64,000 bases of DNA, taken from the NCBI GenBank assembly GCA_963921795.1, contig OY997649.1:62842527-62906526 (forward strand), given 5' to 3'. A model generated the notes under the pieces. That model searched no databases and had not been told where the DNA came from. It saw only the letters and a program-made list of their open reading frames with translations. Shown one piece after another: positions 3,435-61,570 of this stretch; the stretch's first letter is position 1, and every line of letters begins with the position of its first letter. Origin of the DNA: Nannobrachium achirus. Lineage: Eukaryota; Chordata; Actinopteri; Myctophiformes; Myctophidae. Position numbers and translations under genes: made by a program.

Positions 3435-3507
3435 AAAAATAGCAGATATGCAAGCTCACAGCGCGGCACCGAGTGCCGCGCTGCGAGCTTGTAGATCTGC
3501 TATTTTT
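3435..3507. repeat. Hairpin module (HPM), GCGCGGCAC core
   Basis: Left arm AAAAATAGCAGATATGCAAG and its inverse flank a GC-rich centre, GCGCGGCACCGAGTGCCGC. Near-perfect stem of roughly 34 bp. Confidence 0.85.
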
Positions 3508-3868
3508 GAAAAAGTTGTGAAAATGTGTGCAAATCTTTGATTATGTATTTTCAAAGCGAACGTTTGTAACTCAAATTTTGCTTCTGGGTGGTCCCTGGAA
3601 CTAAATATTTTGAGATGGGGGTCTGTGGCAAAATACATATAAGTTTGGGGGTCCTTCACATGAAAAGGTTTGAGAACCACTGACATAGTAGTCTCTCAAG
3701 AACAGATTAACTGAGCTCCAGTTAAGTGAAAAGGTCAAAAGGACCTTTTCTTTGACGATGGCTGGCCAGATTGCTGACATAGAAACATAGATTTTAAAAA
3801 AAAAATCTTAGAAGGATTCAAAAGACACTTATAGAATCGGGTCAAAATTCTAATTTTCACGATTCTTC

Positions 3869-3907
3869 AAAAAATAGCAGATCTACAAGCTCGCATCTGC
3901 TATTTTT
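3869..3907. repeat. HPM, centre deleted
   Basis: The outer stem AAAAATAGCAGAT / ATCTGCTATTTTT is kept but most of the inner stem is lost. It is the second hairpin of the Fam-G element. Confidence 0.75.
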
Positions 3908-3992
3908 CAATAGTTAAAGCATAAAATAATGATACACAATATAGTGTACCCGTTCTGAATGGGTTAAACCAGTTTGTGGCTCTGTGTTTTAC

Positions 3993-4143
3993 CTCGTAGA
4001 AGGGTTTGGGGTCGGTCCAGTGATGGCTCTCTGCGTCGTGGAGGATGCTGGTGGCACACACCTGGACGCAGTAGCTGGTCAGCTGCTCCCTGAGGGCCTC
4101 GGACGCCTCCCGGTACCTCTGGACGGGCAGCAGGGTCAGGGGT
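3993..4143 (-). CDS. KIAA0825: KIAA0825-like exon, most 3' exon in window
   Basis: 151 bp: one base completing a split codon plus 50 codons. The acceptor reads TTTGCAG (plus-strand 4144 onward) and the donor GAG|GTAAAA ends the exon in phase 0. The peptide runs from PLTLLPVQRYREASEALREQ to a C-terminal part with ILHDAESHHWTDPKPF. The last motif is the one I most strongly associate with the mid-to-C-terminal part of KIAA0825 proteins. The 1-base start matches the 2-base end of the exon at 12678-12955. The L2-type LINE tail begins almost at its acceptor. Confidence 0.85.
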
Positions 4144-4149
4144 CTGCAA

Positions 4150-4640
4150 ACAGCACAGGAACCCGTTCACTTAGATCAGCCAACACAGGGATGCTGACAG
4201 AACCCTCGCTAAAAACCCCAGGGCAAAAATCCACTCGTCCGAGACAGTTTGCCCTCCTGGCCCCCAAGTTGTGGAATAAACTCCCTGTCGCACTTAGAAC
4301 GACGGACTCAGTCGCTAGCTTTCGCCGTGGACTGAAGTGAAGACTCACCTTTTCAGACTCCACCTAAACCCATAGAACTACTGGAAAAATCAATGACCAT
4401 ACATGAAGCTAGTTAGCATTTGTTTTTTTAGGTTTTTAGAACTTTTTTCTTTAATGATTATATTGTGTTTTTTTCAAGAATAGATATCCATTTGCATTTG
4501 TTATATTGCTGTTGATGTACTGACATATTATCTTAAGGCTCGTCTGAGGACGACCTAGAGAGAGAGAGAGAGATGTTTTTATCTGCTTATTGTAAGTCGC
4601 TTTGGATTAAAAGCATCTGCTAAATGCCTAAACTGTATAC
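4150..4640 (+). mobile_element. 3' end of an L2/Maui-type LINE (degenerate)
   Basis: Plus-strand codons up to a TGA at 4338-4340 read FALLAPKLWNKLPVALRTTD followed by SVASFRRGLK, which resembles the extreme C-terminus of L2-clade reverse transcriptase proteins in fish. The downstream segment ends TTGTAAGTCGCTTTGGATTA, then AAAGCATCTGCTAAATG, the typical 3' tail of these LINEs and the SINEs that borrow it. The 5' part is missing, as in most dead-on-arrival copies. Confidence 0.75.
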
Positions 4641-4667
4641 TGTAAACTGTAACCGAGGACACATCAG

Positions 4668-5080
4668 GGATGGGACGATAGGAACATGTCATATCACGAT
4701 TATTGTGACAAAAAATAAATCGCGATTTACGACATTATCGCAAATACTCAAAATCCATTATCCTGTGGCGGAACATTAGCCAAAAGACATTTGATAGAGA
4801 GTGAAAAGAAGACTGTATAAAGTATGTATATTATAAGTACCTTTTTACCAATTATAGAGGGTTTAAGTGGTACCGGATATGCAGCTCTGCAAATAAAAGG
4901 TGAATTGATCCCAGTGCATGACGGAGGACTTGATTGAGTATTTTATCAGACAAAAGTGGAGAACATAACATTAAAGAATGTAGTACAGTACAATTTATCG
5001 TGACAATATCACGATGAATTAAATATCCACAATACGATTATCGTGAGTGTTTTTTATCACGATAAACGATAATGTAACTT
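4668..5080 (-). mobile_element. Fam-F element without hairpin module
   Basis: Starts CAGGGATGGGACGATA and contains repeated ATCGTGATA/TATCGTGA motifs like the copies at 38028-38405 and 51886-52180, in opposite orientation. The sequence GGAACATTAGCCAAAAGACA around 4770-4790 corresponds to the place where the other two copies carry HPM sequence, so it is an HPM-free paralogue. The far end fades into T-rich sequence near 5080. Confidence 0.65.
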
Positions 5081-6770: not shown

Positions 6771-6822
6771 AAAAATAGCAGATCTACAAGCTCGCAGTGA
6801 GCTTGTAAATCTGCTATTTTTC
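6771..6822. repeat. HPM, short-stem version
   Basis: AAAAATAGCAGATCTACAAG, then a short AGTG-containing centre, then CTTGTAAATCTGCTATTTTT. Inside the Fam-H element. Confidence 0.85.
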
Positions 6823-7169: not shown

Positions 7170-7330
7170 CTGTTCAAGCTCACAGTGAGCTTGTAGATCG
7201 GCTATTTTTGTCTAAAGTTCTCAGAATATGGACGCTAGGGTCCAAGTGGTTAATATAAAAAAGGAGAAAAAATAATCTATCACTCAAAGATTTGGAGGAC
7301 CCCCTGTAGTAACTCTGTTGAAGACCCCTG
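7170..7330 (+). mobile_element. Fam-C element, right half with half HPM
   Basis: Begins in a partial hairpin (TTCAAGCTCACAGTGAGCTT) and continues into GGAGGACCCCCTGTAGTAAC and TTGAAGACCCCTG, the right end of Fam-C elements such as 22867-23305. The left half is missing. Confidence 0.7.
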
Positions 7331-7904: not shown

Positions 7905-9903
<1,999 letters not shown>

Positions 9904-10352: not shown

Positions 10353-10530
10353 GGGAGGGACCAGTGGAGAAGAGATTCAGCAGAACATAAGTCACCAAGG
10401 TTGCGCACACGAGTCACAGTCCAAAAATAGGTGATCTACAAGCTCGCGAGTCGCGACGCGTTGTGAGCTTGTAGATCGGCTATTTTCGGCATGCAGCAAA
10501 GTGAACATCTGCCATTTTGATGGCATCACA
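10353..10530 (-). mobile_element. Fam-J fragment with HPM
   Basis: AGGGAGGGACCAGTGGAGAA, then a hairpin, then GATGGCATCACAACC. This matches, in reverse orientation, the middle of the complete Fam-J element at 19124-19641. Both termini are missing. Confidence 0.6.
10423..10486. repeat. HPM inside Fam-J fragment
   Basis: AAAAATAGGTGATCTACAAG pairs with CTTGTAGATCGGCTATTTT around a GCGACGCG-rich centre. Confidence 0.85.
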
Positions 10531-10983: not shown

Positions 10984-12677
10984 CTGTTTTATAACTTACA
11001 CCCTGTCCTTAGTGGAGGCTGCGTGCTCCCTCAGTGTGGTGGTAGAGTTCTATAACTTACACCCTGGTGGAGGCTGTGTGCTCCCTCAGTGTGGTGGTAG
11101 AGTTCTATAACGTACACCCTGTCCTTAGTGGAGGCTGCGTGCTCCCTCAGTGTGTGCTGGTAGAGTTCTATAACGTACACCCTGTCCTTGGAGGCTGCGT
11201 GCTCCCTCAGTGTGGTGGTAGAGTTCTATAACTTACACCCTGTCCTTAGTGGAGGCTGCGTGCTCCCTCAGTGTGTGCTGGTAGAGTTCTATAACTTACA
11301 CCCTGGTGGAGGCTGTGTGCTCCCTCAGTGTGGTGGTAGAGTTCTATAACTTACACCCTGTCCTTAGTGGAGGCTGCGTGCTCCCTCAGTGTGTGCTGGT
11401 AGAGTTCTATAACTTACACCCTGGTGGAGGCTGTGTGCTCCCTCAGTGTGGTGGTAGAGTTCTATAACTTACACCCTGGTGGAGGCTGTGTGCTCCCTCA
11501 GTGTGGTGGTAGAGTTCTATAACGTACACCCTGTCCTTGGAGGCTGCGTGCTCCCTCAGTGTAGTGGTAGAGTTCTATAACTTACACCCTGGTGGAGGCT
11601 GTGTGCTCCCTCAGTGTGTGCTGGTAGAGTTCTATAACTTACACCCTGGTGGAGGCTGTGTGCTCCCTCAGTGTGGTGGTAGAGTTCTATAACTTACACC
11701 CTGGTGGAGGCTGTGTGCTCCCTCAGTGTGTGCTGGTAGAGTTCTATAACGTACACCCTGTCCTTAGAGGAGGCTGTGTGCTCCCTCAGTGTGTGCTGGT
11801 AGAGTTCTATAACTTACACCCTGTCCTTAGTGGAGGCTGCGTGCTCCCTCAGTGTGGTGGTAGAGTTCTATAACTTACACCCTGTCCTTAGTGGAGGCTG
11901 CGTGCTCCCTCAGTGTGGTGGTAGAGTTCTATAACTTACACCCTGTCCTTAGTGGAGGCTGCGTGCTCCCTCAGTGTGTGCTGGTAGAGTTCTATAACTT
12001 ACACCCTGTCCTTAGTGGAGGCTGCGTGCTCCCTCAGTGTGTGCTGGTAGAGTTCTATAACTTACACCCTGTCCTTAGTGGAGGCTGCGTGCTCCCTCAG
12101 TGTGTGCTGGTAGAGTTCTATAACTTACACCCTGTCCTTAGTGGAGGCTGTGTGCTCCCTCAGTGTGTGCTGGTAGAGTTCTATAACTTACACCCTGTCC
12201 TTAGTGGAGGCTGCGTGCTCCCTCAGTGTGGTGGTAGAGTTCTATAACTTACACCCTGTCCTTAGTGGAGGCTGCGTGCTCCCTCAGTGTGTGCTGGTAG
12301 AGTTCTATAACTTACACCCTGTCCTTAGTGGAGGCTGCGTGCTCCCTCAGTGTGGTGGTAGAGTTCTATAACTTACACCCTGTCCTTAGTGGAGGCTGCG
12401 TGCTCCCTCAGTGTGGTGGTAGAGTTCTATAACTTACACCCTGTCCTTAGTGGAGGCTGTGTGCTCCCTCAGTGTGGTGGTAGAGTTCTATAACTTACAC
12501 CCTGGTGGAGGCTGCGTGCTCCCTCAGTGTGTGCTGGTAGAGTTCTATAACTTACACCCTGTCCTTAGTGGAGGCTGCGTGCTCCCTCAGTGTGGTGGTA
12601 GAGTTCTATAACTTACACCCTGTCCTTAGTGGAGGCTGCGTGCTCCCTCAGTGTGGTGGTAGAGTTCTATAACTTAC
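10984..12677. repeat. 53-63-bp minisatellite derived from an exon/donor boundary
   Basis: About 29 tandem units. On the minus strand each reads AACTCTACCAGCACACACTG, then AGGGAGCACGCAGCCTCC, then AAGGACAGGGTGTAAGTTAT. The adjoining exon (12678-12955) ends with the same sequence, ACAGGGT|GTAAGT. The array is therefore a tandem amplification of the last ~46 coding bases plus the splice donor. Subtypes differ by GTGTGTGCTGG versus GTGTGGTGG and by presence of the TCCTTAG block. Some units carry CGTACACCC, which destroys the donor. Confidence 0.95.
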
Positions 12678-12955
12678 ACCCTGTCCTTGGAGGCTGTGTG
12701 CTCCCTCAGTGTGTGCTGGTAGAGCTCCAGGCGCTGGCGGACGTGGATGCAGGAGGCCAGCAGGGCGGGCAGGTCCCCCAGCGGGGCGGAGCCGGGCACC
12801 TCCAGGGCCCGGAGCTCCAGGCGCTCCAGCAGGCAGCGCGCCGCCCGGCCGCAAGCCTCCACGAAGCTGCAGCGCACCTCCAGGACAGAGGGGTCCCCGC
12901 AGGCCACGGCCAGGGGCAGCAGGCCGTCCAGCTCCGCCGTGACGGTGCCGCAGAA
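12678..12955 (-). CDS. KIAA0825: KIAA0825-like exon with repeated donor
   Basis: 278 bp: 92 codons plus two bases. The acceptor is TCTCCTACAG and the donor GGGT|GTAAGT is a consensus match. The peptide starts FCGTVTAELDGLLPLAVACG and ends RLELYQHTLREHTASKDR. It is leucine- and cysteine-rich, probably helical, and strongly GC-rich. Its end has been amplified into the adjoining minisatellite. Reading past the authentic donor gives GTG TAA, so use of any downstream repeat donor would end translation at once. Confidence 0.85.
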
Positions 12956-13600: not shown

Positions 13601-13651
13601 GAAAACGCGTCATTGAGCTTGTAGATCTGCTACTGCTTCTGATGCTTCTGA

Positions 13652-17140: not shown

Positions 17141-17144
17141 GCCG

Positions 17145-17412
17145 TCGCAAGGAAACCACGTATGTCCAAAAAAAAACGTTTGTTTTGTGTTCGTCATTTT
17201 AAAAATGATTTAAACAGTGAAAATAGCCGATCTACAAGCACACAACGCCACACGATGCGAGGCGTCGTGTGCTTGTGGATCTGCTATTTTCACTAGTTCT
17301 GTCCGACACTCTTGCATGATGAAGTAGGGCTTTAAGTTACCAAAGAAACGTACAAGTTTGAAGCTTGGAGATACGAGGTTTCTGCCTGACAATGATGATG
17401 ATATCGTGAGGA
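17145..17412 (-). mobile_element. Fam-D element with HPM
   Basis: Left TCGCCGTCGCAAGGAAACCA then CGTATGTCC; right GGAGATACGAGGTTTCTGCC then TGACAATGATGATGATATCG. These are inverted relative to the copy at 32401-32666. A hairpin sits in the middle. Non-autonomous; superfamily not determined. Confidence 0.7.
17215..17295. repeat. HPM with ACAAGCACAC arms
   Basis: Arms begin AGTGAAAATAGCCGATCTAC and pair out to CTATTTTCACT. Both arms carry AAGCACAC instead of the commoner AAGCTCAC, as do the other Fam-D copies at 32507 and 45551. Confidence 0.9.
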
Positions 17413-19123: not shown

Positions 19124-19641
19124 CAGTGTTGTTTTTGACAGCACATTTGGATTTAGTTTTAGTCTTTTGAATAAAATGTCATTTAATTTTAGTCATAATT
19201 TAGTCACCTGAAAAGTTTTAGTTTTAGTCTTATTTTTGTTGACTAAATATCATAATATTTTAGTCGACTAAATCTACAGTTGATTTAGTCAACTGTAAAG
19301 TATTTTGGCAGGCCTTGATGGCATCGTAAGGACTGATTTTACACTTGGTTGTGTGCTGAAAAAAAGCAGATCTACAAGCTCACACCGTGTCGCGTTGTGA
19401 GCTTGTAGATCTGCTATTTTCAGCACGCAACACCTGAGAGCAACCAAACATAAAATGACTCTCCTCTCCACTAGTCCCTCCCTAATTTATTATTTTGTTG
19501 ACGAAATTGTCAATATATTTAGTCTTAGTTTTAGTCATCACAGCTTAGTTTTTATTTAGTTTTTATGTCGTTTTTGTCGGTGAAAAAAACACAGTCGACA
19601 AACATTTTTCGCCATATATTTAGTCGACAAAATCAACGCTA
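19124..19641 (+). mobile_element. Fam-J hAT-like element with HPM
   Basis: Flanked by a perfect 8-bp duplication ACTACAGC (19116-19123 and 19642-19649). Termini CAGTGTTGTTTTTGACAGC and GACAAAATCAACGCTA. Rich in TTTTAGTCGACTAAA motifs typical of this common fish MITE. A hairpin occupies the centre. Confidence 0.88.
19353..19426. repeat. HPM with GTGCTG outer arms
   Basis: GTGCTGAAAAAAAGCAGATC pairs with GATCTGCTATTTTCAGCAC. The outer GTGCTG/CAGCAC is specific to this host family. Confidence 0.88.
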
Positions 19642-20303
19642 ACTACAGCGTCAGACAAGCAGCAGATACGCGCTTGTAGATCTGCTACTTTTGATACGTT
19701 TGAATTTAAATCCTGAAAAACTCTTTTGGACATACGAGGTTTCCTCCTGACACACCAGACCACAGAGACTCCCCCAGCTTTAGTCCTGTGAGCGAAAAGA
19801 GAAAGAAAGACATTTTTCATTTTTCAACAGAAGCGGAAAAACCCGACGCACGTTCCAAACAAATCGATCAATCATTCACATTCCCAGATTACACTGAGCT
19901 TACGGAGTCGTTCCTGCACTCCATTACCGCTTACATCTTGTAGCGAGGATCTCGTCTTCGACGTTCTATGCTATTGGATGGACGTGGTGCGGACACCATT
20001 GACAACCTGACAATCTCGCTCACGCTACTTCTTTTTTTTTTCCTCTATAAAAGGAGGAGGACGCTCCGGTGTGTGGGCTAAACTATAGATAGACCTGAGA
20101 ACAGCTTGGCCCCGGTTGGACAATGGAGTCAATATGATCTGACTGCACAAAGTCCTTAGCAGCTTTCAGGGGTGTCGCACCAAGTTCTGGGGCCTGCATG
20201 GGTACAAGGATTCTACTGCGGGCCCCCGTGAATGTTCTTCATAAGGGGAGGGGGGGTTTAACCCATTTAGACTGTGAACGCATTATTTTGTGCTTTAACT
20301 ATT

Positions 20304-20368
20304 GAAAAATAGCACATGATAGAAGCTCACAGCGCCACGCTGCGAGCTTGTAGATCTGCAATCTTTTG
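20304..20368. repeat. HPM, partly decayed
   Basis: TTGAAAAATAGCACATGATA on the left has drifted; the right arm GAGCTTGTAGATCTGCAATC is nearer consensus. Confidence 0.75.
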
Positions 20369-20655
20369 AAAAATCCTGAACATTTGTGCAAGCCTTTGAA
20401 TATTTCAAATCCTTTTCAAAGCCTTTGAAGCCTTTCAAATCCTTCTAAGGTTTGTTGAAAAAAACCTATGTTTCTATATGTCAGTGGTGCTCAAACTTTT
20501 TCATGTGAAGGACCCCCAAAATTATATGTATTTGGCCACAGATCCTATCTCAAAATATTTAGTTCCAGGGACCCCCCACAAGCAAAATTTTAGTTACAAA
20601 TGTTCGCTTAAAAAATACATAATTCAAAGACTTGCACACATTTTCACGACTTTTC

Positions 20656-20709
20656 AAAAAAATAGCAGATCTACAAGCTCACTGTGAGCCTGTAGATCTG
20701 CTATTTTTC
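20656..20709. repeat. HPM, short-stem version
   Basis: AATAGCAGATCTACAAGCTC followed closely by GAGCCTGTAGATCTGCTATT. Confidence 0.88.
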
Positions 20710-21203: not shown

Positions 21204-21489
21204 CGTGCAGTATGCTGGAACTAAATATTTTGAGATGCGGGTCCGTGGCCAAATACATATCATTTTGGTGGTCCTTCGAAAAGGTTTGAGCAACCCTGAC
21301 ATAGAAACATAGTTTAAAAAAAAAAAAAAAAAACAAGGATTTGAAATATTCAAAGACAAATTTTCACCATTTAAAAAAAATAGCAGATCTACAAGCTCGT
21401 ATATCTGCTATTTTTCAATCGTTAAAGCACACAATAATGCAGTGAATCCTTGTTGTACCCAGGGCCCAGAATTTGGTGAGACACCCCTG
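21204..21489 (+). mobile_element. Fam-H right-end fragment with HPM
   Basis: Begins in GGAACTAAATATTTTGAGAT and ends GGTGAGACACCCCTG, the Fam-H right terminus. A minimal hairpin lies at 21373-21416, AATAGCAGATCTACAAGCTC paired with GTATATCTGCTATTTTT. Confidence 0.7.
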
Positions 21490-21883
21490 TGTATGAGTCC
21501 TGAAGCGGAGTGTCGTTCAACATGCACCCCGGCTGCCGATAGAAAAGCAGTCGCTCCCGCCGTCTAAACTAAAATGATGGATGTACAGCGGCGTACAGTT
21601 GGCCTACATACTGTGTGTATATGTATGCTAATAATGCAGCGCCCCGGCCCGGGCCGAGCCGAGCGCCGCTCAGACGAACGACGTATCAGCTGGGGTGGAA
21701 ACCGCGTAAGGTCCACAACCGTTAACACTTTCCATGTTTCAAATTGAAATAAAAAAAAAAAGTAAAAAGTATCAGATGCGCAAGCTCGCAACGCGACGCT
21801 TTGCGCCGGAACTTGCAGATCTGCTACACTCAGCTTGACGCTTTCGTGTGACGCTGTAGTATGATAAAGTAGGGGACGTTAAT

Positions 21884-22866: not shown

Positions 22867-23305
22867 CAGGGGTCTTCAACGTTTTCAGGCCAAGGACCCC
22901 TTAGTTGAGAGAGAAATGAAGCAGGGACCCCCACAACCTGTTCATAGATTCCATATAGTTTCATTGTTTGACAGCACTATCATCAGTGTATTTTGGATTC
23001 ATGTCAATTTGTGTTTTCAGATATTTAACCACTTGAACTGTCAATACTTAATAAACCTGACCTTTCACTCTGTACGTAGTCTGCTCTTTTTACCCTCTAC
23101 ACCAAACCTCTTTGCCGAAAATAGCCGATCGCCTCGCAGCTGCTATTTTTGGCTAAAGTTCTCAGAATATGAACGTTAAGGGTTCAAGTGGTTGATATAA
23201 AAAAAAGGAGAAAATAAAGTTTCTATCACATAAAGATTTGGAGGACCCCCTGTAGCCACTCTGGGGACCCCCTAGGGGTCCCGGACCCCCTGTCGAAGAC
23301 CCCTG
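22867..23305 (+). mobile_element. Fam-C hAT-like element, complete
   Basis: Termini CAGGGGTCTTCAACG and TGTCGAAGACCCCTG with a perfect 8-bp duplication CACTAAAG (22859-22866 and 23306-23313). A reduced hairpin at 23114-23153 pairs GCCGAAAATAGC with GCTATTTTTGGC, the outer bases being family-specific. Confidence 0.9.
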
Positions 23306-23859: not shown

Positions 23860-24090
23860 TTGTGAAAGTATAGCCAAACTACAGGCTCACAACACCTTGC
23901 ATTGCCAGGTAATGTAGATCGGCTATTTTCACAATGTCTGCCTCTTTCTTTCGTAATATTTGACAATTTGGTATTAAACAAAGGTCTTAAAAGTCATATC
24001 ATGAAATGGTCACTTTAGAAATGTGCAGATACCCTGTATACACTTACAGTATACGTTATGTCGGTTTGTTTGTTGTTGAGAAAACAAAGT
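23860..24090 (+). mobile_element. Fam-B fragment with decayed HPM
   Basis: A mutated hairpin (GTGAAAGTATAGCCAAACTA to GTAGATCGGCTATTTTCAC) is followed by ATATTTGACAATTTGG and GAAATGTGCAGATACCCTGT, as in the complete Fam-B copy at 60337-60769. Confidence 0.6.
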
Positions 24091-35699: not shown

Positions 35700-36412
<713 letters not shown>

Positions 36413-41289: not shown

Positions 41290-41447
41290 TAAAAAATCTG
41301 TAGATCTGCTATTTTGGCAGTGTTCTCCCCAGGATTTAGACGTGAGGGTTCAGGTGGTTAATATAAAAATTAAAAATTAAAGTCCCTATCACACAAAGAT
41401 TAGGCGACCCCCTAGGGGTCCCGGACCTCCTGTTGAAGACCCGTGCA
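41290..41447 (+). mobile_element. Fam-C right half with half HPM
   Basis: CTGTAGATCTGCTATTTTGG, then GACCCCCTAGGGGTCCCGGA and TTGAAGACCCGTG. Confidence 0.65.
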
Positions 41448-41815: not shown

Positions 41816-42384
41816 GAATTATTGAATGCTTTAACTATTGAAAAATAGCAGATATACAAGCTCACAGCTGCGAGCTTGTAGATCTGCTATTTTTGAAAAA
41901 GTCGTGAAAATGTGTGCAAATCTTTGAATATATGTATTTTTAAAGCGAACGTTTGTAACTCAGATTTTGCTTCTGGGTGGTCCCTGGAACAACATATTTT
42001 GAGATGCGGGTCCGTGGCGAAATACATATCATTTTAGGGGTCCTTCACATGAAAAAGGTTTGAGAACCACTGACATAGTAGTCTCTCAAGAACAGACTAA
42101 CTGAGCTCCAGTTAAGTGAAAAGGACCTTTTCTTTGACGACGGCTCACCAGATGGCTGACATAGAAACGTGGGTTTTTTCAAAAAAAAACTTTGAAGGAT
42201 TCAAAGACACTTATAGAATCGGGTCAAAATTCAACTTTTCAAGTAAAAAAAATAAATAGCAGATCTACAAGCTCGCAGCGCGGCACTCGGTGCCGCGCTG
42301 TGAGCTTGTATATCTGCTATTTTTTAATAGTTAAAGCATACAATAATAATACACAATAACGTGTACCTGTTCTGAATGGGTTAA
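41816..42384 (-). mobile_element. Fam-G element with two HPMs
   Basis: Nearly identical in plan to 3398-3967, including GGTTTGAGAACCACTGACAT and TTCTGAATGGGTTAA. Hairpins at 41839-41895 (short) and 42253-42325 (full GCGCGGCACTCGGTGCCGC centre). Confidence 0.75.
42253..42325. repeat. HPM, GCGCGGCAC core
   Basis: AAATAGCAGATCTACAAGCT to its inverse; the right arm carries GTATATC, a single mismatch against GATCTAC. Confidence 0.9.
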
Positions 42385-43678: not shown

Positions 43679-44141
43679 CGGTGTCTTCAACGTTTTCAGG
43701 CCAAGGACCCCTTAGCTGAGAGAGAGATGAAGCAGGGACCCCCACAACCTTTACGTACATTCCATATAGTTTCATCGTTTGACAGCGCAATCATCAGCGT
43801 ATTTTGGATTCATGTCAATTGATGTTCCAGATATTTAACCACTTGAACCGTCAATTCTTAATATACTTGACCTTTACCTCTGTACTTAGTCCGCTCTTTT
43901 TCCCCTCAACACAAACCTCTTTGACGAAAATAGCCGATCCACAAGCTCACAACGCCTCGCAGCGCGAGGCGTTGTGAGCTTGTAGATCTCCTATTTTTGG
44001 CAAGAGTTCTCTTAATATGGACTTAAGTGTTCAAGTGGTTAAGAGAAAAAAAAAAGGTTCTATCACACAAAGATTTGAGGACCCCCTGTAGTAACTCTGA
44101 GGACCCCCTAGGTGTCCCGGACCCCCTGTTGAAGACCCCTG
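43679..44141 (+). mobile_element. Fam-C hAT-like element with full HPM
   Basis: Perfect 8-bp duplication CATTAAAA (43671-43678 and 44142-44149). The left end is mutated (CGGTGTCTTCAACG); the right end reads GTTGAAGACCCCTG. Hairpin at 43926-43998. Confidence 0.88.
43926..43998. repeat. HPM, GCGAGGCG core
   Basis: AAAATAGCCGATCCACAAGC pairs with GCTTGTAGATCTCCTATTTT around CGCCTCGCAGCGCGAGGCG. Arm mismatches at two positions. Confidence 0.9.
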
Positions 44142-44368: not shown

Positions 44369-44443
44369 TGAAAAATAGCAGATATACAAGCTCACAGCGC
44401 GGCACCGAGTGCCGCGCTGCGAGCTTGTATATCTGCTATTTTT
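44369..44443. repeat. HPM with GATATAC arms
   Basis: AAAAATAGCAGATATACAAG pairs with CTTGTATATCTGCTATTTTT: both arms carry ATATAC/GTATAT in place of ATCTAC/GTAGAT. Confidence 0.92.
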
Positions 44444-44798
44444 TTTTTATCGTGAAAATTTGAATTTTGACCCGATTCTATAAGTGTCTTTTGAATCCTT
44501 CTAAGATTTTTGGAGAAAACCTATGTTTCTATGTCAGCAATCTGGCTAGCCATCGTCAAAGAAAAGGTCCTTTTCACTTCAACTGGAGCTCAGTTAGTCT
44601 GTTCTTGAGAGACTACTATGTCAGTGGTTCTCAAACCTTTTCATGTGAAGGACCCCCAAAATGATATTTATTTGGCCACGGACCCCCATCTCAAAATATT
44701 TAGTTCCAGGGACCACCCAGAAGCAACATTTGAGTTACAAACGTTCGCTTTGAAAATACATATATTCAAAGATTTGCACACATTTTCACGACTTTTTC

Positions 44799-44871
44799 AA
44801 AAATAGCAGATCTACAAGCTCGCAGCGTGGCATCGGTGCCGCGCTGTGAGCTTGTAGATCTGCTATTTTTC
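44799..44871. repeat. HPM, GCGTGGCATC core
   Basis: AAAAATAGCAGATCTACAAG to its inverse; the centre GTGGCATCGGTGCCGCGC has one mismatch and one indel. Confidence 0.88.
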
Positions 44872-45431: not shown

Positions 45432-45690
45432 GCGTGTCGTCACCGTCGGGCAGAAACCTCGCATCTCCAAGTTTCAAATCTTTATGTTTTTTCCCCCGCC
45501 AAATAAAGCCCTGCTTCGTCGCACGAGACCGTCGCAACACAAAAATAGCAAAAAATAGCCAATCTACAAGCACACAACGCCTCGCTGTGTGCTTGTAGAT
45601 CGGCTATTTTCGCTAGTTTAAACCGTTTTTAGAGTGATATGTTCAAAACGAACGGTTTTGGACATACAAGGTTTCCACCCCGACGTTACG
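45432..45690 (+). mobile_element. Fam-D element with HPM
   Basis: TCGTCACCGTCGGGCAGAAA at left, TTGGACATACAAGGTTTCCA at right. The hairpin at 45551-45611 has a shortened centre and the family-specific AAGCACAC / GTGTGCTT arms. Confidence 0.78.
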
Positions 45691-45826: not shown

Positions 45827-45905
45827 TTGAAAAATAGCAGATATACAAGCTCACAGCGCGGCACCGAGTGCCGCGCTGCGAGCTTGTAGATCTGCTATTT
45901 TTCAA
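45827..45905. repeat. HPM, GCGCGGCAC core, 79 bp
   Basis: TTGAAAAATAGCAGATATAC to an inverse ending CTATTTTTCAA. Mismatches only at ATAT/ATCT and ACAG/TGCG. Confidence 0.92.
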
Positions 45906-46085
45906 AAGTCGTGAAAATGTGCGCAAATCTTTGAATATATGTATTTTTTTTAAGTGAACAATTTTGCGTCTGGGGGGTCCCTGGAACTAAATATTTTGAG
46001 ATGGGGGGGGTCCTTCACATGAAAAAGTTTGAGCATCACTGACATGAAAACATAGGTTTCTTGGCACACATTTTCACGATTTTTC

Positions 46086-46159
46086 AAAAAATAGCAGATC
46101 TACAAGCTCGCAGCGCGGCACTCGGTGCCGCGCTGTGAGCTTGTATATCTGCTATTTTT
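46086..46159. repeat. HPM, GCGCGGCAC core
   Basis: AAAAATAGCAGATCTACAAG to its inverse with GCGGCACTCGGTGCCGC centre. Confidence 0.9.
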
Positions 46160-48711: not shown

Positions 48712-50409
48712 ATTATTGATGTGAACTGTACGCCTCTGTACGGCGTGTATACCTCCCCTAGCGTCGGGGCTGCTGAATCCCATGCAACATTTATGAGAGA
48801 TTCTGCTACAGAACGAGGGTCAACATGATCACTTACACCCTCATTAAGTGGGCGGTAATTGACTTTGACCCTACGAGAGAAAAAAAGACCCTCGGAAAGT
48901 TTATCAACATTTTATGAGGACGTCTTCATTTTGTTTAAAGGTATAGGGTAAGTGATATTTCTTTCGTTAAAACAAAGTGTTAAATAGCTCTATGTTGTGA
49001 TAGTACACATTGCTATGGTTTTGTTCGGTTACAGGAGTCTCTGTCTCTCCCAGCTCTTAATTTAAAGACCCAGTGAAATGAAAAATACATTTTTCACACT
49101 TTTAGATACTTATCCATGGTAATCATGGGCATTCCTTACACTAGATGCCAAAAAAAGAAAAAGAACAAAAAATAGAATGTAAACTCTTTTGTGTATTTTG
49201 ATGTAAAAAAAAGTCCCTAAATATCCCATTCTTAATTATTTCCTGTGAACAGTAACGTGCTGCGTGATGACATAGACAGACTTTTTAAATATAAATGAAC
49301 CTCTGATTACTTTCACATGCTTGATTCCCATTGCTGGCATTCCTCCAAACACAGCTGTTTTATAATTACAGCGCTACTCCGTTTTGAATCTCATTCAAGA
49401 TGACGTCCAAACTATGTATTACTCATTGTAAACTTAATGAGCACAATAGAATATGTATCTGTAAACATTATAGGTTATAATATGCAACTTAGTATCAAAC
49501 ATTCTGTACAAGAGGCAGCCTGGTCATGTCTCTCTGCCTTGCTAATGAGGGCTAAAAACAAAACATTAGGCATCACATGACTCAAATGCTACGTTCCATC
49601 GCCTGAAGGGCTGTTCCCTTCTGATTGGTTCAGAAAAGAGAGGAAGAAGAGAGAGTGAAAAGGAGGAGGAGCCCAACCCCCCCTCCCTTACATCTGTCGG
49701 GGGGGGTTGCCGTCTTCGGGCAGAATGGTTGTATTAATGTGTTTTTTTCATTGTACGCCCTACTCGATCATACGATCAGCGACACACACAAACGCATCCA
49801 CAATAGCACACCTACAAAGGCTCAAAGCCTGTTGCTTCGCCTTTCCAACTTGTCGATCTGCTGTGCTGAACTGAAAGTGACAGAGAGCTTTGTTTGATGC
49901 AAACCAGGGTCATTTGTACACAAGGATTTGCCTGGTTTTCTTTTGACCCTTTGAATTATTGTATTGGAAAACTGGAAGTTGGACTGTATGCTTTCAGCGG
50001 TTCAGTACATTATTATTATTTTTTTTACAGTACACACTAAAGTACACATACACACTCCTACAGCACACACCAGAGCAGGCAAAACGCCTCCACTTTAGCG
50101 TGGTTACACACACAGCGCGGGTCCCTGGCGCTCCCGCTAACATGTGACGGTTTGCTGAGCGGTGTATGTAGATGTTAGTGCGTGCATGTGCGCGTGCATG
50201 TCTGTGTGCGAGCGTGTGCGCATGTGTGTGTGTGTGCCATCAAACGGGCAGACTGACGCACGGCCAATTATTGCGACTGCCTCCTCTCCTCTCATCTGGG
50301 ATTTAAGGAGAGAGGGAGAGAGTATGAGGACCAAAAGGGGAGAGTATGGAGGAGGTGGAGGAGGTGAAGGTGGAGGAGAGGTGGAGGAGAGGAGAGAGGG
50401 AACAAGACC

Positions 50410-50584: not shown

Positions 50585-51885
<1,301 letters not shown>

Positions 51886-52180
51886 GGACGATAAGCGATA
51901 TTATCGTTTATTGCGATAAAAAAACACTCACGATAATCGTATCGTGGAGATTTAATTCATCGTGATATCGTCCTCCGTCATGCACTGGGATCAATTCAGC
52001 TTTTGTTTGCCGGTACCGCTTTAACCCATAATTGGTAAAAGGTACTTATAATATACGTACTTGATGCAGTCTTTTTTTTTTCACTCTAATGTCTTTGCCA
52101 AAGACATAGCCCATCTACAAGCTCACTACGCGTCACAACGCGACGCGTAGTGAGCTTGTACATCTGCTATTTTTTTTTTA
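51886..52180 (+). mobile_element. Fam-F element, left part with HPM
   Basis: Starts TAGGGATGGGACGATAAGCG and reaches the hairpin at 52104-52173, after which a Fam-G/H type fragment (TGGAACTAAATATTTTGAGA, 52240-52325) replaces its right part. Confidence 0.72.
52104..52173. repeat. HPM with CACTACGCG arms
   Basis: ATAGCCCATCTACAAGCTCA to its inverse; both arms read ACTACGCG/CGCGTAGT where Fam-E copies read ACAACGCG/CGCGTTGT. Confidence 0.9.
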
Positions 52181-54012: not shown

Positions 54013-54172
54013 CTGCGACCTGACAGTAGCTTATCTCCCGATTAGGGAGTCTTACTGGTGAATTACTACATTGCAGTGTATTGATACTTTGACTTACTAA
54101 ATTGGAGTACTTTTTCCACCACTTGCCAAAGACCTAAACCGACGACGGGGAAGGAAGACGGCAGTAACTGAC

Positions 54173-54548
54173 CTACGGTGGCCGTGGACCTGGCCGAGCT
54201 CTTCCTGGTCCTGCCGCCGTGCAGCACGGTGTTGTCCTTCAGGGCGGCCTGGCGCTCCCTCTCCACGGCGGAGGCCAGCTCCCGGGCCACGCCCTCCAGG
54301 TAGGCGTCGTTGAGGAACGCCAGCGTGGCGTGCGGCTCCGCCGCCAGCCCCGCCCCCGCCAGGACGCGGAACTCGTCTCCGATGGCCGCCGCCAGGGCCG
54401 GCGCCGCCCAGCGGAAGCCCGCCGCCAGCCTGTCGAAGCCGGTCTCACCACCACCACCAGCAGCACCACCAGCCCCGCCCGCGCCTCCCGGGGTGCTGGA
54501 GGTCAGTGCGGAACGCAGGACGTCCAGAGCCCACTGGCTCCTCACAGC
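54173..54548 (-). CDS. KIAA0825: KIAA0825-like exon, largest in window
   Basis: 376 bp: 125 codons plus one base. Acceptor TTCTCCACCCAG|GCTGTG; donor GTAG|GTCAGT, chosen over the nearby ACC|GTAGGT because only it keeps frame with the next exon. The peptide starts AVRSQWALDVLRSALTSSTP, has a Gly/Ala-rich insert, then ATLAFLNDAYLEGVARELAS and a basic RTRKSSARST near the end. The FLNDAYLEGV stretch parallels FIKETYLD-type sequence in human KIAA0825 as recalled. Very GC-rich; the acceptor tract is duplicated beyond the neighbouring Fam-A insertion. Confidence 0.85.
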
Positions 54549-54611
54549 CTGGGTGGAGAAAGGACAGGGGGCAAGATGGTAACCAGCACTGACATGATTT
54601 GGTGAGAGAAC

Positions 54612-55142
54612 CAGGGTTCCCACACATCTTTACCAATACTTTTCCAAAACTTTTCCAAAACTGTTCCAGAATATTTAACCCGATTTCCAGGACTATATAA
54701 CAATAATTCAGCTCAATAACGAGTCGCTTACTCCTATGTGCAATATGCCTAAAGACAGGTAGTGTTTGAAAGTGGTTCTCAACCTTTTCAGGCCGTGACC
54801 CCCGAAATAATCATATTTGAACTGGGGACCCCGGCACCCTGACGAGCACTAAGAGTAGAGGAATTTTGTTAACACGGTTCTATTGTGAAAATAGCAGATC
54901 TACATGCTCACATGTAGATCGGCTATTTTCACAATTTCTGCCTCTAATATTTGACAATTTGGCCAATGTTTAATTTGTCATTTCAGAGGTATTAACAAAA
55001 TCAATAACCACAGACAATGCATAGCTATTTTTTCCAGGACCTTCCAGGAGCCTTGATACATTCCAAAACTTTTCCAGTACTGGAAAAAATATTTTTCTCA
55101 TTTCAAAATATTTCCAGGAATTTCATGACCGTGGGAACCCTG
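54612..55142 (+). mobile_element. Fam-A composite element with HPM
   Basis: Flanking 6-mers GAGAAC (54606-54611) and GAGAAG (55143-55148). Interior Fam-B part and a hairpin at 54882-54935. It sits between two copies of a ~55-bp stretch from the exon acceptor region. Confidence 0.85.
54882..54935. repeat. HPM with CTACATGC arms, centre deleted
   Basis: ATTGTGAAAATAGCAGATCT ... GATCGGCTATTTTCACAAT; inner stem lost symmetrically. Confidence 0.88.
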
Positions 55143-55199
55143 GAGAAGGACAGGGGCAAGATGGTAACCAGCGCTGACATGATTTGGTGAGAGAACTAA

Positions 55200-57545
55200 G
55201 CAACCTGGGTCTAGAAAAATAAGCCCAAAAGAAGCGACTATAATAGCACTTTTAACCTATTACTGTATACATCGGATATTTGAAATAAGACCGTAGGTCT
55301 ACAAGCTCACAAGCGTCACAATCATAAGGCATGTTTTCATTGCAGTTCCGGAATTTTCCCGGCAAAATAAAGAATTATAATTAGCATAACTTGCCGGGAG
55401 TTTAGTTTTTTGGGTGTTTTCACATGCCCTCATCGGCAGCAAAAATACTGGTATCGCTCGTTTTCACTGCCATTGTGACGGCATGAAAACCAGGGTTGCC
55501 AGATTTTGCGAGAGAAATAAGCAACCAGGTGTACAAAAATAAGCCCCAAAAACTGATATTATCTAGCCACACGAGCACTTTAAAACTATACGCATCGCCG
55601 CATCAGCTACTTGAAAATTGCCAATCTACAAGCTCACAACAAATAAACCGCAACCAGCCACTATCAATACAAGCAACTTTACGGAAATCAAGCCCAGAGT
55701 CGCTTATAATTAGCAGACATGGCAACACACGGACTGAAAGACCTGCAAAAAACACACGCGGGCTGAAAGACCTGCAAAAAACAGTCTCCCCAGTTCGGTT
55801 TGGTGCGTCTCTTCTCTCTCTCACCCTGAACGCTACAAATGGATTTAACAAAATATTCTTCATGCAACAACACATTCAGAAAAGGATCGCTCATGCGTTA
55901 TGCAACCTGTTGGGGGAAATCTCGCTCTTAACAGCGAAACGCTCCCCCCATGCACTTGTGGCTTGTGGGCTTGTAGATTTAGCTTTTTTTTCACGCGTCA
56001 CTGTAAACGATGGATGACCATGCAGACTCGATGCTCGCTGCTCTGTAAAACACTTTTAATCATGCAACGAGGAGAAACTATTAACAAATGATGCAGCTCT
56101 TTGAGTTGGTAAAGATTCCAGCTTTCATCACAACATTACGAGCGCATTGCATCCCGTTCTCCAGACCGGACTTGTATCAAAACCCACACAGTTTAATTAA
56201 AAATAGGCTATAGAATACAAATAAGTTTGAACCATGAGCAAGCTCAGAAGGTTCAGAAAGGATCGCTGCATGATGCAACGTGTTGCACTTGTGGGCTTGT
56301 AGATTATTAGCTGTGTTTTTTTTTTCTTCACGCGACACCATAAACGATGGATGACCAGAGAAAGAAAGAAATAGACTTCTGCTGTGTTTGTCAATGCGAT
56401 TCTAGCCTAAATAATTAATCCCCTATTCAAGGTGAAGCTGTAGACCTACTTTATTTCTATATATTCATTTACATTCAGGTCGTTTTCAATCCCAGATACA
56501 ATGTTTTAAACTGTTAACTGGCTCCTTTCATGCACCTGGTTGTCAAAAAAACGGCAAATTCACGGCATGCGTTTTCACTGGAGGGAAATTTGTATTGTCA
56601 CGGTACTTTCATCAAAAATTACTAGGTATTTTCCCGTCAAATTTCGGCCCCCAATACTGCCGGGACACAAAATAAGTGGCCGTTTTCACATGGCGTGAAT
56701 TTCAAAATTGCCGTCATTTTTGAAAAAACTCCCAGAAGTTTTGCTCAGTGAAAACGGGGCTATAGACTGTATAAAAGATATGGACAAAGCGAAGCCATTG
56801 GTTTCTATGCAGCGAAAATGACACAATATGGGTCCTTGGCATGGGTGTTGCCATCATAGATTGTAAAGGCACCAGAGGAGGCTATTGGCTGCCAACGGTC
56901 ACATGCAACCGCAGAGATACATGGGAGAATGTGGTCGGAGCCTCCCGAAATACAGCACACGAAGAAGAACACAGCCGGCTGGTATAAGTTTAGTTGGCCG
57001 CGCCCCCCGCAACTTTATCCCATTTAACATAAATGGGACCTTATTTTCACAAAATGCATATCATCGTGATTGAAAGGCAATTTTTAACTAGCGATAGGAA
57101 CCATAAAGTATGTATGAACTGTTAATTAAGGTTAGAAAACGAAAGGGGAAAATGAATGGGGTCCAATGGAGAACAATTTTTTTTGCAATCGGTCGGGGGG
57201 GAAAACAGCGCAACTAGCGGCCAATCATAGGAAGTTTTAGTTCCGTATTGGGCTCATTTTAAATCGGCGGAACTATGCCCCTGGTCACAATGCGACAGTC
57301 TAAAAACACAAATCTAGTGCGGGGGCTCCCCTGGCTCTAAATATTTGCAGATGGGGGGGTTAGGGGACAAATACATATTAATTGGGGGTCCATGACTTAA
57401 TTGAAAATATTTGAGAACCACTGGTTTAAATAATACATACAACAATCTACAAGCAGATCTGCAAGCTCAAAACACGTCGCTTCTTGCAGCGTTTGGAGCT
57501 TGCGGATCTGCTACTTTTGATGCATTTGTGTGACGCTGTAGTTTG
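55200..57545. other. Intron with decayed repeats
   Basis: Two related stretches, GGGCTTGTAGATTTAGCTTT (55967) and GGGCTTGTAGATTATTAGCT (56291), each followed by AAACGATGGATGACCA. Further degenerate HPM-like pieces at 55612-55640 and 57446-57520. Paired sequences with CCGGAATTTTCCCGGCAAAA near 55345 and a related GTATTTTCCCGTCAAATTTC near 56627 suggest an old MITE. No exon. Confidence 0.45.
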
Positions 57546-57829: not shown

Positions 57830-58003
57830 GTACATTTACTCAAAAAAGAAAGTAACTAAGTACATTTACTCAAGTACTTTGTATTCAGGTACTTTGACTT
57901 TACTTGAGTATTATTATTATTAGTTTCAGTAGTTTCTACAATGCAGTAGTGATACTTTTCCAGTTTTACTCAAGTAAAACATTTGAGTACTTTTTCCACC
58001 ACT
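57830..58003 (+). mobile_element. Fam-E end fragment
   Basis: AGTACATTTACTCAAGTACT then GAGTACTTTTTCCACCACT; internal part and hairpin missing. Confidence 0.65.
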
Positions 58004-58009
58004 CTCTCT

Positions 58010-58257
<248 letters not shown>

Positions 58258-58298
58258 GTGTCACAGCGCTTCATTGACAGGGTTTTCTCAGGCCGTAC

Positions 58299-58496
58299 CT
58301 GATAGCGCGCGAGGACCTCGGCCTGGGGGTAGAGGAAGCAGAGCTCCTGGAGACAGCGCACACGCTCAGGGACGGACGGAGCAGCGGGCACCGGCGGCGG
58401 CAGCCTGGACTCTGGACCGCGGTGCTCTGGACCGCAGGAGGACAGCCTGTCCTGTAGGTGGCGCCGTAGCAGGAGACGCACGTCGTCCCACACTTC
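58299..58496 (-). CDS. KIAA0825: KIAA0825-like exon with WDD and FLYP motifs
   Basis: 198 bp, 66 codons, phase 0 at both ends. The acceptor is TATAGTTTCAG|GAAGTG and the donor TATCAG|GTACGG. The peptide starts EVWDDVRLLLRRHLQDRLSS and ends with RVRCLQELCFLYPQAEVLAR then YQ. Human KIAA0825 as recalled has a closely similar WDD-R-LRR and CLQ-L-FLYPESEV arrangement at the same distance. This is the strongest single support for the gene identity. Confidence 0.88.
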
Positions 58497-60189
58497 CTGA
58501 AACTATACAGACCAAGACAACGCAAAAAGAAAGACATGCCATCTCTGGTTTACTTCCTGTATCTGGGTGAAGTAGGTGCAGCACTGCAGGCCGCCTTTTT
58601 AGGAGACCATAAGTAGGTTGGAATCTTTATTATTTCCAATGGAAGAGTGAACGTGGAACATAGCTACCTGAACGAGTCTTTAGACCCATGGTCACTGAAC
58701 TAAATATTAGACCCCGTCGTCACAAGCCACACAATCTTCCCAAGATTTTCATATTAAAATGTTTTCTTTTTTTCTGGGAACATCTATTTTATTATCTGTC
58801 CCATCGACACAACGGATCTAGCACCAGTGAACATCGGACGTTTTTCCAGTTCAATTTTTTTCTCCTGTTCATTTCTTTGTGCCATCACTGCCAATTTCAC
58901 TTGTTTAATCTGCGTCCTGATTGGAGGAAATTGGTATCCCGAGCGCATTTTCTGTTTACTAGACCTGGAGATTTGGGGGGACTCCTGTTACTGACACTCT
59001 AGCAATGAATACTATCAGAATATAGAGCTATGCAACCCTTATTGTTACAAAGCAATAGAGCAGTGAAGTCCGACCTCATTTACCCATCCTACCTGGTTCA
59101 CGCCCCCCCCACTGTGTTCCAAACATAAACAAATGATCTATGCGGTTTGACTCATATGGATATGAAGAATCAACTGACGATGAGAAAACGCTAATGTTAC
59201 TGTCGCCAAATTAGTTACATTTTCGCTAGAAACAGGCTTTATCAAATATGAGTGAATGACTATCATAAACCATACAGAGCTACCTCCCCGACAATATCAC
59301 GCAAACCGTGTGTTTATTTTTGGACAGAGAAATTACTTCCATGAACCGGGGGATGAGTGAGTCACGTCATGATTTCACTGCTCTATATCACTAGCCCTAT
59401 AAAGTATTTATTATTATTAAGCTAAGGTATAAACAACCTAACACGTTAACAGGCACAGGTTAATATCATTTGTTGATTTCACGCATCAGACTCCCAAACG
59501 TTTGTTTGAGGAGCGTGATTTGCAGACACAAGGAATTGCATGACACAAGGAATGGCATGTAATGCTGTAACAACCCATCAAAAATAGCATCTTCTAACAA
59601 TAGACTCAAAACTGCGGACGTTGTGGAAATGCACAGCTCACACTGACAGATTACACAAGATAAATATAGACAGTGCGCTACAGCTGACGTACAGCCATAC
59701 AACAACAGACAAAGCTGCGGAACGCTGGCAGACGAGTGGATGGTGCGCCGGGAGCATTAAGGGCCATCTTTGATTCCTTTCCCCATGGAATAAAGCTAAA
59801 TAAAATCTCATGACAGAACCTGTTTGTCAGGCCAAGTCCCAATACGTATGATTTGTGAAACAGTGAGTTTCTGCATACAGCCAACCAGTTGAAGACATTG
59901 CAGATGCAGGCTTTGACCTTTTTGCTTTTTATATGACTCTGAGACCGCTTTGCTTGGCTTTTAAACATATATTCCATTACTAGTTTGACCCCTTCAAATA
60001 CACTTTCATCTCATAAAATAACTAACTAGTAAGACGCCTCAGGGCGTCTGTCCAGTGATGCATATCGGACCAGTTACCATTATGGAGATCCATGTAATGT
60101 ACAGGGAGATATGCTGCGAGACCCCAAACATGCTTAATCAGTTATTTGTTATGTGAAAATCCTATGACATATCACATCTGACATCATAC
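58497..60189. other. Intron without recognised repeats
   Basis: The longest stretch in the window (about 1.7 kb) with no microsatellite, hairpin or transposon end that I can see. No exon found. Confidence 0.45.
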
Positions 60190-60336
60190 ATACAATCTAG
60201 GGATGCCCCGATCAGGGTTTTTTTGCTCCCGATCCGATACCGATCAAATATTATTGCTTCCGATTCGATCCCGATCTTTCCCGATCCGATCTTTTGGCAA
60301 GGCATTAAGAAGAAAAAAAAATTCTATTCATTCTAT

Positions 60337-60769
60337 CACTTGGTTCTCAACCTTTTCAGGCCGTGACCCCCAAAATAATCATATTTTAACTGGGGACCCC
60401 CGACCCTGAAGAGTTGAGGAAGTATATTTTGTATAACACGGTTCTATTGTGAAAATAGCAGATCTACATGCTCACAACGCCTCGCAACGCGAGGAGTTGT
60501 GAGCATGTAGATCGGCTATTTTCACAATTTCTGGCTTTAATATTTGACAATTTGGCCAATGTTTAATTTGTCATTTTAGAGGTATTAAAAAGTCCTTAAT
60601 TTTTCACTTTCGAAATGTGCAGATACCCTCTATACACTTAAACTTTATGTTGATTTGTTTACTGTTGAGAGAGAAAACAATGTTGCACATTAAGTTAATC
60701 ATCTGGGGACCCCCCAAAATAATTTGAGGACCCCCCTGGGGGTCCCGACCCACAGGTTGAGAACCACTG
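60337..60769 (+). mobile_element. Fam-B hAT-like element with HPM
   Basis: Near-inverted ends CACTTGGTTCTCAACC and GGTTGAGAACCACTG; GGGGACCCCC blocks at both sides. Hairpin at 60446-60528. This is the fullest copy of the sequence embedded in Fam-A. Confidence 0.8.
60446..60528. repeat. HPM with CTACATGC arms, 83 bp
   Basis: ATTGTGAAAATAGCAGATCT to its inverse; both arms have ATGCTCA, centre CGCCTCGCAACGCGAGGAG. Confidence 0.92.
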
Positions 60770-61263
60770 AGCTAGTTGACAGTGCAGAGAGACATAATTG
60801 CCTTCCTTTGATCCATTAGCAAGGGGCCAATTACTACTTATTGGCATCAGCTGCCAGCTGTACACAGAGTCTGACACAATCACCTTCCCTCTGCAGTGCT
60901 CTGTCTGTCTCATTTCTCCAAAAGCCCTTGAATATGATTGAAAATGATTAAGGATTACTGTGATTATGGTAAGCTTACATTTCATATCGCATTCACCTTA
61001 CCTGTAACTTTCAGTACTCCCAGAAAATATTTTTTTGAAAAAAAAAAAAAAAAAAGATTTTTTTTTTCCCCCGATCTCCGATCTTATAAAAACGGCCATA
61101 TCGGCGGCCGATCCGATCACGTGATCGGGATCGGGCAACACTAATACAATCCATTTCATGCCCATACATGGAGATCCCTGTCTGAACCAGCCACACCACT
61201 GTGATGTAACCCGTTTAGAAAGATGTGCCGGTTTTCATAGTTAACTCCGACCTATGGTCGCAA

Positions 61264-61331
61264 TAACTGATCTACAAGCCCACAAACATGTCACGCTGTG
61301 AGATGTTGTAAGCTTGTAGATCTGCTAATGT
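61264..61331. repeat. Decayed HPM
   Basis: AACTGATCTACAAGCCCACA paired with TAAGCTTGTAGATCTGCTAA; host repeat not identified. Confidence 0.65.
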
Positions 61332-61499
61332 TGTTGCGCGACATTGCTTTCATAGAACGCATGCTGGCTTCTATGGAATCGGAATGACTGAAATCAGTCG
61401 TGGCGACTGAGAACTTTATAATCCACATTATGAATAAAAATGTAATTAGGCTTTGTAAACTATTATAAATAAATAATTTAATAACTTCATACAAAAAAG

Positions 61500-61570
61500 A
61501 ATAGTGGATATAGCCGATCTACAAGCTGTGTGACACACTTTGAGCTTGTAGATCGGCTATATCCACTATT
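61500..61570. repeat. HPM with compensated GGATATAGCC arms
   Basis: AATAGTGGATATAGCCGATC and GATCGGCTATATCCACTATT are exact inverses over at least 28 bp. The arms carry matched differences (GGATATAGC) from every other copy. The loop GTGTGACACACTTTG is short. Confidence 0.93.

Follow-up and report, generated by a model that had tools for sequence, protein, structure and literature searches.

A Palindromic Hairpin Module inside Non-Autonomous DNA Transposons with Different Types of Ends in Nannobrachium achirus

How does one and the same hairpin come to lie inside repeats that differ in their termini? This question is raised by a stretch of 64,000 nucleotides of Nannobrachium achirus, positions 62,842,527-62,906,526 of contig 12 in a genome of 1,658,514,493 bases, which is referred to here as the window. 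The original prediction described a hairpin carried by at least eight unrelated repeat families and held that the module must have spread between them. The hairpin is a conserved core inside DNA transposons that are non-autonomous and have ends of at least three types, i.e., TTAA, TA, and hAT-like ends with 8-bp duplications. Repeat families are denoted below by letters and sampled loci by handles beginning with L.

Abundance of the Hairpin

The module is composed of the core AAAATAGCMGATCTACAAGCWCACAACGCSTCGC, a short loop, and the complement of the core, and measures approximately 71 bp. DNA folding of five hairpins yielded -36 to -46 kcal/mol, with z of -12 to -17. The exact 20-base arm AAAATAGCMGATCTACAAGC or its complement is present 18 times in the window, and 46, 58, 64, and 68 arms were counted at up to 1, 2, 3, and 4 mismatches, respectively, compared to a mean of 0.1 and a maximum of 1 arm in first-order Markov shuffles (n = 20) at 4 mismatches. 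With up to five mismatches per arm, 30 forward/reverse arm pairs were recognized. At up to four mismatches the arms fall into 42 separate hairpin sites, 26 of them with both arms, which is in good agreement with the about 45 copies originally predicted; the nine copies regarded as best were all recovered within a few bases of the predicted positions. Shortened loops or a single remaining arm were observed at many sites.

The expectation that the arm recurs far beyond the window was borne out as well, with 197,510 exact matches (98,658 on the plus and 98,852 on the minus strand) genome-wide, while the reversed arm word, used as control, has no exact match across the whole genome. In a sample of one 10-kb locus from each of contigs 1-20, two of these loci consisting of about one fifth N, 74 sites were found, with at least one site in 18 of the 20 loci; extrapolation from this sample suggests approximately 6x10^5 sites genome-wide. 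No arm was matched in the viral sequence collection, and Rfam at gathering score gave no match in the window. A bacterial source was rejected, as the single 20-mer found, in the Marinomonas contig L001, corresponds approximately to the chance expectation in 257 Gb.

Host Families and Their Ends

For the assignment of host families, flanks were compared anchored at the hairpin edge instead of by plain BLAST clustering, which chains nested neighbours. The 116 sites compared yielded 173 flanks, which form 18 groups of at least two members and 43 single flanks. The host elements are miniature inverted-repeat transposable elements (MITEs), being short and bounded by terminal inverted repeats (TIRs). 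No open frame of at least 120 aa overlaps the P2 or S host stretches in the window, and no autonomous partner was identified for the host elements. Their superfamily names are presumptive and follow from the types of ends and target duplications.

The TTAA type is best represented by P2, a 208-bp element with a single hairpin, TTAA target duplications, and the TIR TTAACCACTTGAAC at both ends, which match in 14 of 14 positions. The window copy lies at 43835-44042 on the plus strand (hairpin 43927-43997). Family A has TTAA ends of the TTAACCCATT type and two hairpins. V is another repeat with a P2-like unit inside, as indicated by scores of 6.9 and 5.6 between the P2 and V flanks compared to a null maximum of 4.9, and Q is a repeat in which a TTAACCACTT segment, recognized by eye only, precedes the hairpin. 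Thus A, P2, and the insert in V are of the TTAA type, and the insert in Q probably belongs to it likewise. A hairpin follows within 160 bp inward of the word TTAACC[AC]NTT in 25 of 36 cases; for four control words the corresponding counts are 4 of 109, 6 of 47, 12 of 128, and 6 of 98 (4-13%).

Fifteen elements of families S and U, the L008 copy of n1, and four R stretches examined in the window contain neither TTAACC nor GGTTAA. S (241-249 bp) and its diverged relative U share flanks and ends of the type TCGTCGTTGTCGGGTGGAAACCTTGTATGTCC adjoining TA, and TA target duplications were seen by eye in the S alignment. All 16 pairs of S/U ends, two of which overlap, enclose a hairpin. The ends of R are hAT-like and of the type CAGTGGTTCTCAACC; among 31 ends of this type, 21 are no more than 300 bp away from a hairpin, many of them being A interiors. 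One copy of the hAT-like n1 (L008:3973-4389) is 401 bp long, has the TIR YAGGGCTGTCAC, and is bordered by the 8-bp direct repeat AAGAGAGG. One of the two hairpins of A is bounded by a TTAA end on one side and by a hAT-like end on the other: the latter was detected in 13 of 30 inner A flanks, in none of 27 outer ones, and in 4 of 116 other flanks, and the A-type TTAA end in 9 of 27 outer A flanks and in none of 30 inner or 116 other flanks.

T and several other flank types with undefined ends stand beside the three types named. Due to the P2-like unit in V, the TTAACCACTT segment in Q, the TTAA ends of A, and the common ends of S and U, only three unrelated end types are demonstrable. Unrelated ends were therefore correctly predicted, but eight independent families were not recovered.

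Conservation of the Core and Matching of the Arms

Likeness between families ends at the core, as the information per position amounts to 0.70 bit for the base directly outside it and to at most 0.28 bit farther out (61 flank groups). The two outside flanks of the same hairpin, in contrast, resemble each other slightly further: over 23 flank-group combinations their identity at positions 1-4 is 0.78, 0.57, 0.61, and 0.52, compared to 0.40, 0.31, 0.23, and 0.24 between families, and no excess was observed at position 5. Pairing beyond the core often runs on with family-specific letters; of 39 full-length hairpins, 17 remain paired without interruption for 3-9 bases past the arm and the other 22 for 0-2 bases.

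The sampled families carry their own versions of the hairpin. Considering 16 chosen representatives, left and right arms pair at 0.80 over 41 positions within families, whereas right arms permuted across families gave a mean pairing of 0.70, and none of 2000 deals reached 0.80. At 26 of the 41 pair positions the pair types differ on both sides. As some representatives are related (the two hairpins of A; S, an older S, and U), these counts are not wholly independent events. Both orientations of the loop are represented in S (ACC 9 and GGT 6 of 18, 1 other, 2 unscored) and in n1 (ATC 12 and GAT 2 of 20, 4 other, 2 unscored). In case of R, AAC was read 3 times and GTT once among 14 loops, of which 10 were unscored, too few for a judgement. 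In one S copy the start of the left arm is doubled at 45525-45571 (AAAATAGCAA beside AAAATAGCC), possibly a small template-switch scar.

Family Switches at the Hairpin

Among 58 two-armed sites, both flanks belong to the same family in 42 cases, an unclustered flank is present in 15, and a single site is discordant. This site (52103-52173, plus strand) is of V type in the left flank and through most of the hairpin and continues on the right as A interior, with the changeover inside the right arm. An A-left/P2-right combination was encountered at one place genome-wide, L112, beside 15,621 ordinary A places. The outer parts of L112 are P2-like on both sides, the flank, left arm, and loop are of A type, and P2 resumes in the right arm; the left join contains approximately 30 bases of other origin. 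A combination of A on the left and R on the right was likewise matched at one candidate place in the genome (contig 21, 27516108-27516191). Furthermore, among 20 places with an R left flank, at least three (L072, L075, and L077) pass within about 10 bases to the right of the hairpin into a sequence other than the usual R half, and L083 departs from it as well.

Copies without a Hairpin

Exact S flanks lie 75-105 bases apart at 3,514 places and 0-30 bases apart at 99 places; R flanks occur at 2,225 ordinary and 80 close-flank places. These counts cover gaps of 0-30 and 75-105 bases. The short forms of S differ widely in their joins, which frequently coincide with short direct repeats, and in some of them an arm is partly retained. 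Among ten S copies examined that lack the hairpin, eight have an identical ACTA join. Two of these eight represent one duplicated locus, one belongs to a shortened S subfamily, two lie elsewhere, and three are situated, next to copies with the hairpin, in a single larger repeat. The 20 hairpin-less R copies examined comprise 19 CTATT joins and one other, from both R subtypes and including two duplicate pairs. Because such S and R copies were found in several backgrounds, we consider them losses, and from their sequences the hairpin-less copies of S, R, Q, and V are read as recurrent short-repeat deletions. Accordingly, they were rejected as empty sites that would prove insertion, and no clear pre-insertion site was seen among those examined.

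A free-standing hairpin element was also considered and rejected. The variant GTGGAAATAGCC...GGCTATTTCCAC, which seemed to be free, has 258 places in the genome, each matched on both strands owing to its palindromic pattern, and in the 20 places examined an n1-type flank is present on one side in all 20 and on the other side in 19. The exception is L066, whose left flank passes into sequence resembling the flank at window position 61260. As far as this one variant is concerned, the hairpin seems not to move by itself. The predicted spread between families is supported by the switches inside the hairpin (window position 52103 and L112); spread as an independent unit is not supported.

Origin and Spread of the Module

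We regard the hairpin as a palindromic module resident in MITEs, rarely exchanged by hairpin-centred recombination or template switching and then amplified by each host, an explanation whose probability we put at about even. The hairpin would extrude, or fold on single strands, in replication or gap repair. Polymerase jumps between the arms would keep the arms matched, extend the stems, and flip the loops, and a rare jump to the hairpin of another family would result in an exchange. The usual transposase might then multiply an element that has two good ends but a foreign hairpin. The matched arms, the flipped loops, and the losses at short repeats are consistent with actual formation of the hairpin, but the enzymes involved and the stage, replication or gap repair, are inferred.

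Several observations weigh against this explanation. Its main weaknesses are that chimeras are very rare, with one in 58 two-armed sites and one A/P2 place beside 15,621 of A, and that no recent gain was seen. Neither the chimera at 52103 nor L112 was found amplified, and in no case was a family without the hairpin seen to have newly acquired one. Some apparent chimeras could moreover be nested insertions followed by later deletion. Two of three unpaired S-type ends lack a hairpin within 200 bp, as do 10 of 31 hAT-like ends of the CAGTGGTTCTCAA type within 300 bp. The readable A loops, in 12 displayed sequences, are all of one orientation, and loop flipping is therefore not universal. Finally, L037 and L039, two of the three ACTA-join copies in the larger repeat, have private variants in common and may go back to a single loss, i.e., represent one hairpin-less line.

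Among the alternatives, chance or convergence, by which palindromes arise often and come to resemble each other, found no supporting point and is refuted by the 197,510 exact 20-mers compared to none of the reversed word and by 68 arms in 64 kb compared to 0.1 after shuffling, which leaves it practically no probability. The hairpin could instead be a tiny palindromic transposon of approximately 75-95 bp, perhaps targeting TA, that inserted into other elements and was then carried along. Boundaries of the form TA-GTG(G/A)AAATA.. and ..CAC-TA in L008, L013, and at window position 61507 would agree with this, as would the recurrent hairpin-less form of S with its exact ACTA-to-ACTA join. TA is itself palindromic, however, and thus expected in any extension of a palindrome, and the T and P2 flanks lack it; the eight ACTA forms lie in several S backgrounds, which points to losses, and the GTGGAAATAGCC copies share one flank in 20 and the other in 19 of 20 cases, so that we consider such a transposon distinctly improbable.

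Unlikely as well, to a slightly lesser extent, is a descent of all hairpins from one ancestral, piggyBac-like TTAA MITE, with all other cases explained by nested insertions. The P2-like unit in V, the segment starting TTAACCACTT in Q, and the tight linkage of TTAACC[AC]NTT to hairpins are what such an ancestor would leave behind, but the S/U elements, the L008 copy of n1, and the window R stretches mentioned above are free of TTAACC and GGTTAA. We hold it to be no more and no less unlikely that the hairpin is a selected cis-acting element, a DNA cruciform or RNA hairpin, required for efficient amplification and retained in each successful family. The data are compatible with it: the core is conserved while the flanks are not, the arms are matched across families, and the hairpin-less S (10) and R (20) copies are mostly scattered losses. 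Since hairpin-less copies amount to about 3% where counted, few hairpin-less lines are expected anyway, though; L037 and L039 may be one such line, and other repeats of the window do without the hairpin.

A bolder version of the exchange explanation would regard the module as a parasite of transposons, i.e., as a module without machinery or ends of its own, passed between superfamilies by template switching and kept for raising the copy number of its carrier MITE, a speculation that we find rather doubtful. If exchange is true, DNA transposons with unrelated ends swap a structural part, and the switch points are visible in the sequence; this could be a rare visible case of a part common to otherwise unrelated mobile elements. 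The probably hundreds of thousands of natural copies, a number obtained by extrapolation, would allow palindrome deletion, loop inversion, and arm matching to be measured in a vertebrate-like genome. Should the hairpin promote amplification, this would bear on the question why certain MITE families attain very high copy numbers.

Relation to piggyBac Elements and Known Systems

In the genome 116 piggyBac transposase matches were scored, and 10 loci were read over 3.5-4.0 kb each. The word TTAACC[AC]NTT was present only in L030, as TTAACCAGTTCACAAACGG, approximately 0.7 kb beyond and downstream of the transposase domain, and no partner to this end could be located. Due to this end-like word (TTAACCAGTT) downstream of a transposase, a piggyBac source for the TTAA group is possible. 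At L030:718-737, TTAACCAGTTCACAAACGGT is a possible piggyBac end resembling those of the hairpin-bearing TTAA group. The hairpin as part of an autonomous piggyBac was rejected: arms with up to four mismatches are present in 8 of the 10 loci, but 14 sites in 37,990 bases equal the background of 74 per 200 kb, and some of these sites fall within nested S copies. Upstream of the piggyBac transposase domain in L024, the same diverged hairpin occurs twice (214-284 and 885-955) with near-identical flanks and with an S copy between (522-766). A local cluster of 16 matches to piggyBac transposase, without exception on the same strand, lies on contig 2 at 71.35-71.84 Mb.

Highly conserved domains of short interspersed elements (SINEs) are shared between families and, similar to the hairpin, form a short core common to families with different ends; they belong to retroelements, however, while the families considered here are DNA transposons and their core is a palindrome with matched arms. 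Angel, a palindromic MITE of fish, has the fold-back structure in common with these short elements, but it constitutes an entire element that has ends of its own, in contrast to the internal and shared hairpin. Abortive gap repair and template switching are a source of internally rearranged DNA transposons and offer a proposed route to swap internal parts while the ends are kept, with the difference that the switch point here is a particular shared hairpin.

The nearest printed parallel found is MER6, a MITE carrying the conserved domain of V-SINEs, alongside which the highly conserved domains of SINEs are named (PMC6887750). A conserved module of one element class was in that case co-amplified inside an unrelated DNA-transposon MITE, but it is a single domain, without mention of a palindrome in the abstract, in MER6 and a variant (PMC6887750), whereas the hairpin is carried by several families, the ends of which are of three kinds. 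Among the matches listed for related ideas, nothing closer was apparent from titles and the openings of abstracts, and no paper was matched by 14-15-base pieces of the core. The module may already be named in subscription papers or repeat libraries.

Hairpins and Other Features of the Window

Besides the P2 element described above, a single P2 right arm is located at 7189-7208 (plus strand), with other P2-type sites at 23118-23137 and 41296-41315. The A element at 3436-3890 (plus strand) consists of a hairpin at 3436-3506 and an arm at 3871-3890, with TTAACCCATT-type ends outside and a hAT-like end inside. Further A elements are situated at 44372-44869 (minus strand, hairpins 44372-44442 and 44800-44869), 41842-42323 (plus, hairpins 41842-41893 and 42253-42323), 45831-46158 (plus, hairpins 45831-45901 and 46088-46158), and 20346-20707 (minus, arm 20346-20365 and hairpin 20659-20707), and more A copies at 6772-6820, 21377-21414, and 40358-40402/40701-40720. 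For S, a copy with TIRs of the GTCGTTGTCGGG..GAAACCTTGTATGTCC type lies at 17143-17391 (minus strand, hairpin 17220-17290), followed by 32412-32656 (plus, hairpin 32512-32582), 45444-45684 (plus, hairpin 45552-45610 with a shortened loop), and a right-arm remnant at 36306-36325. The U hairpin occupies 57447-57517 (plus), and more U-like sites were found at 8435-8454, 19672-19691, 21766-21830, and 30667-30686.

R hairpins, all on the plus strand, lie at 28928-28998, in a hAT-like element with the end CAGTGGTTCTCAACA at 28820, at 37007-37063 with a shortened loop, at 54888-54929 with the loop nearly deleted, and at 60452-60522; a diverged R-like copy occupies 23867-23929. In case of Q, the hairpin following the TTAACCACTT segment is located at 35337-35407 (plus), other copies at 51104-51174 and 37434-37453, and a copy without the hairpin near 47690. 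One V element retains a single arm (38270-38289, plus), and a hairpin-less V copy extends from about 4783 to 5073. T hairpins occur at 10424-10486 (plus) and, as a second copy, at 19360-19420. Host families are undefined for the hairpin with arms GATATAGCC..GGCTATATC at 61507-61563 (plus) and for the diverged hairpin at 61260-61331 (plus), the left flank of which is similar to that beside the n1 hairpin in L066. The sites are completed by a weak diverged hairpin (49800-49867, plus) and by the arms at 13617-13636 and 55614-55633, which are likewise weak or stand alone.

Exon-like open frames on the minus strand (54069-54629, 57969-58502, and 62204-62692), two of which run into CA repeats, possibly belong to one gene; Pfam gave no match to the three at E 0.01. 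A direct repeat of approximately 57 bp (94.8% alike, 54554-54611 and 55141-55196), far above the usual size of a target duplication, flanks an R-bearing element at 54612-55140. Tandem arrays are present at 10986-12716, with units of approximately 55-63 bp (GTTCTATAACTTACACCCTGTCC...), and at 31055-32176, where the 39-bp unit (ETFKVGRARKQGA repeat) is open in several frames on both strands.

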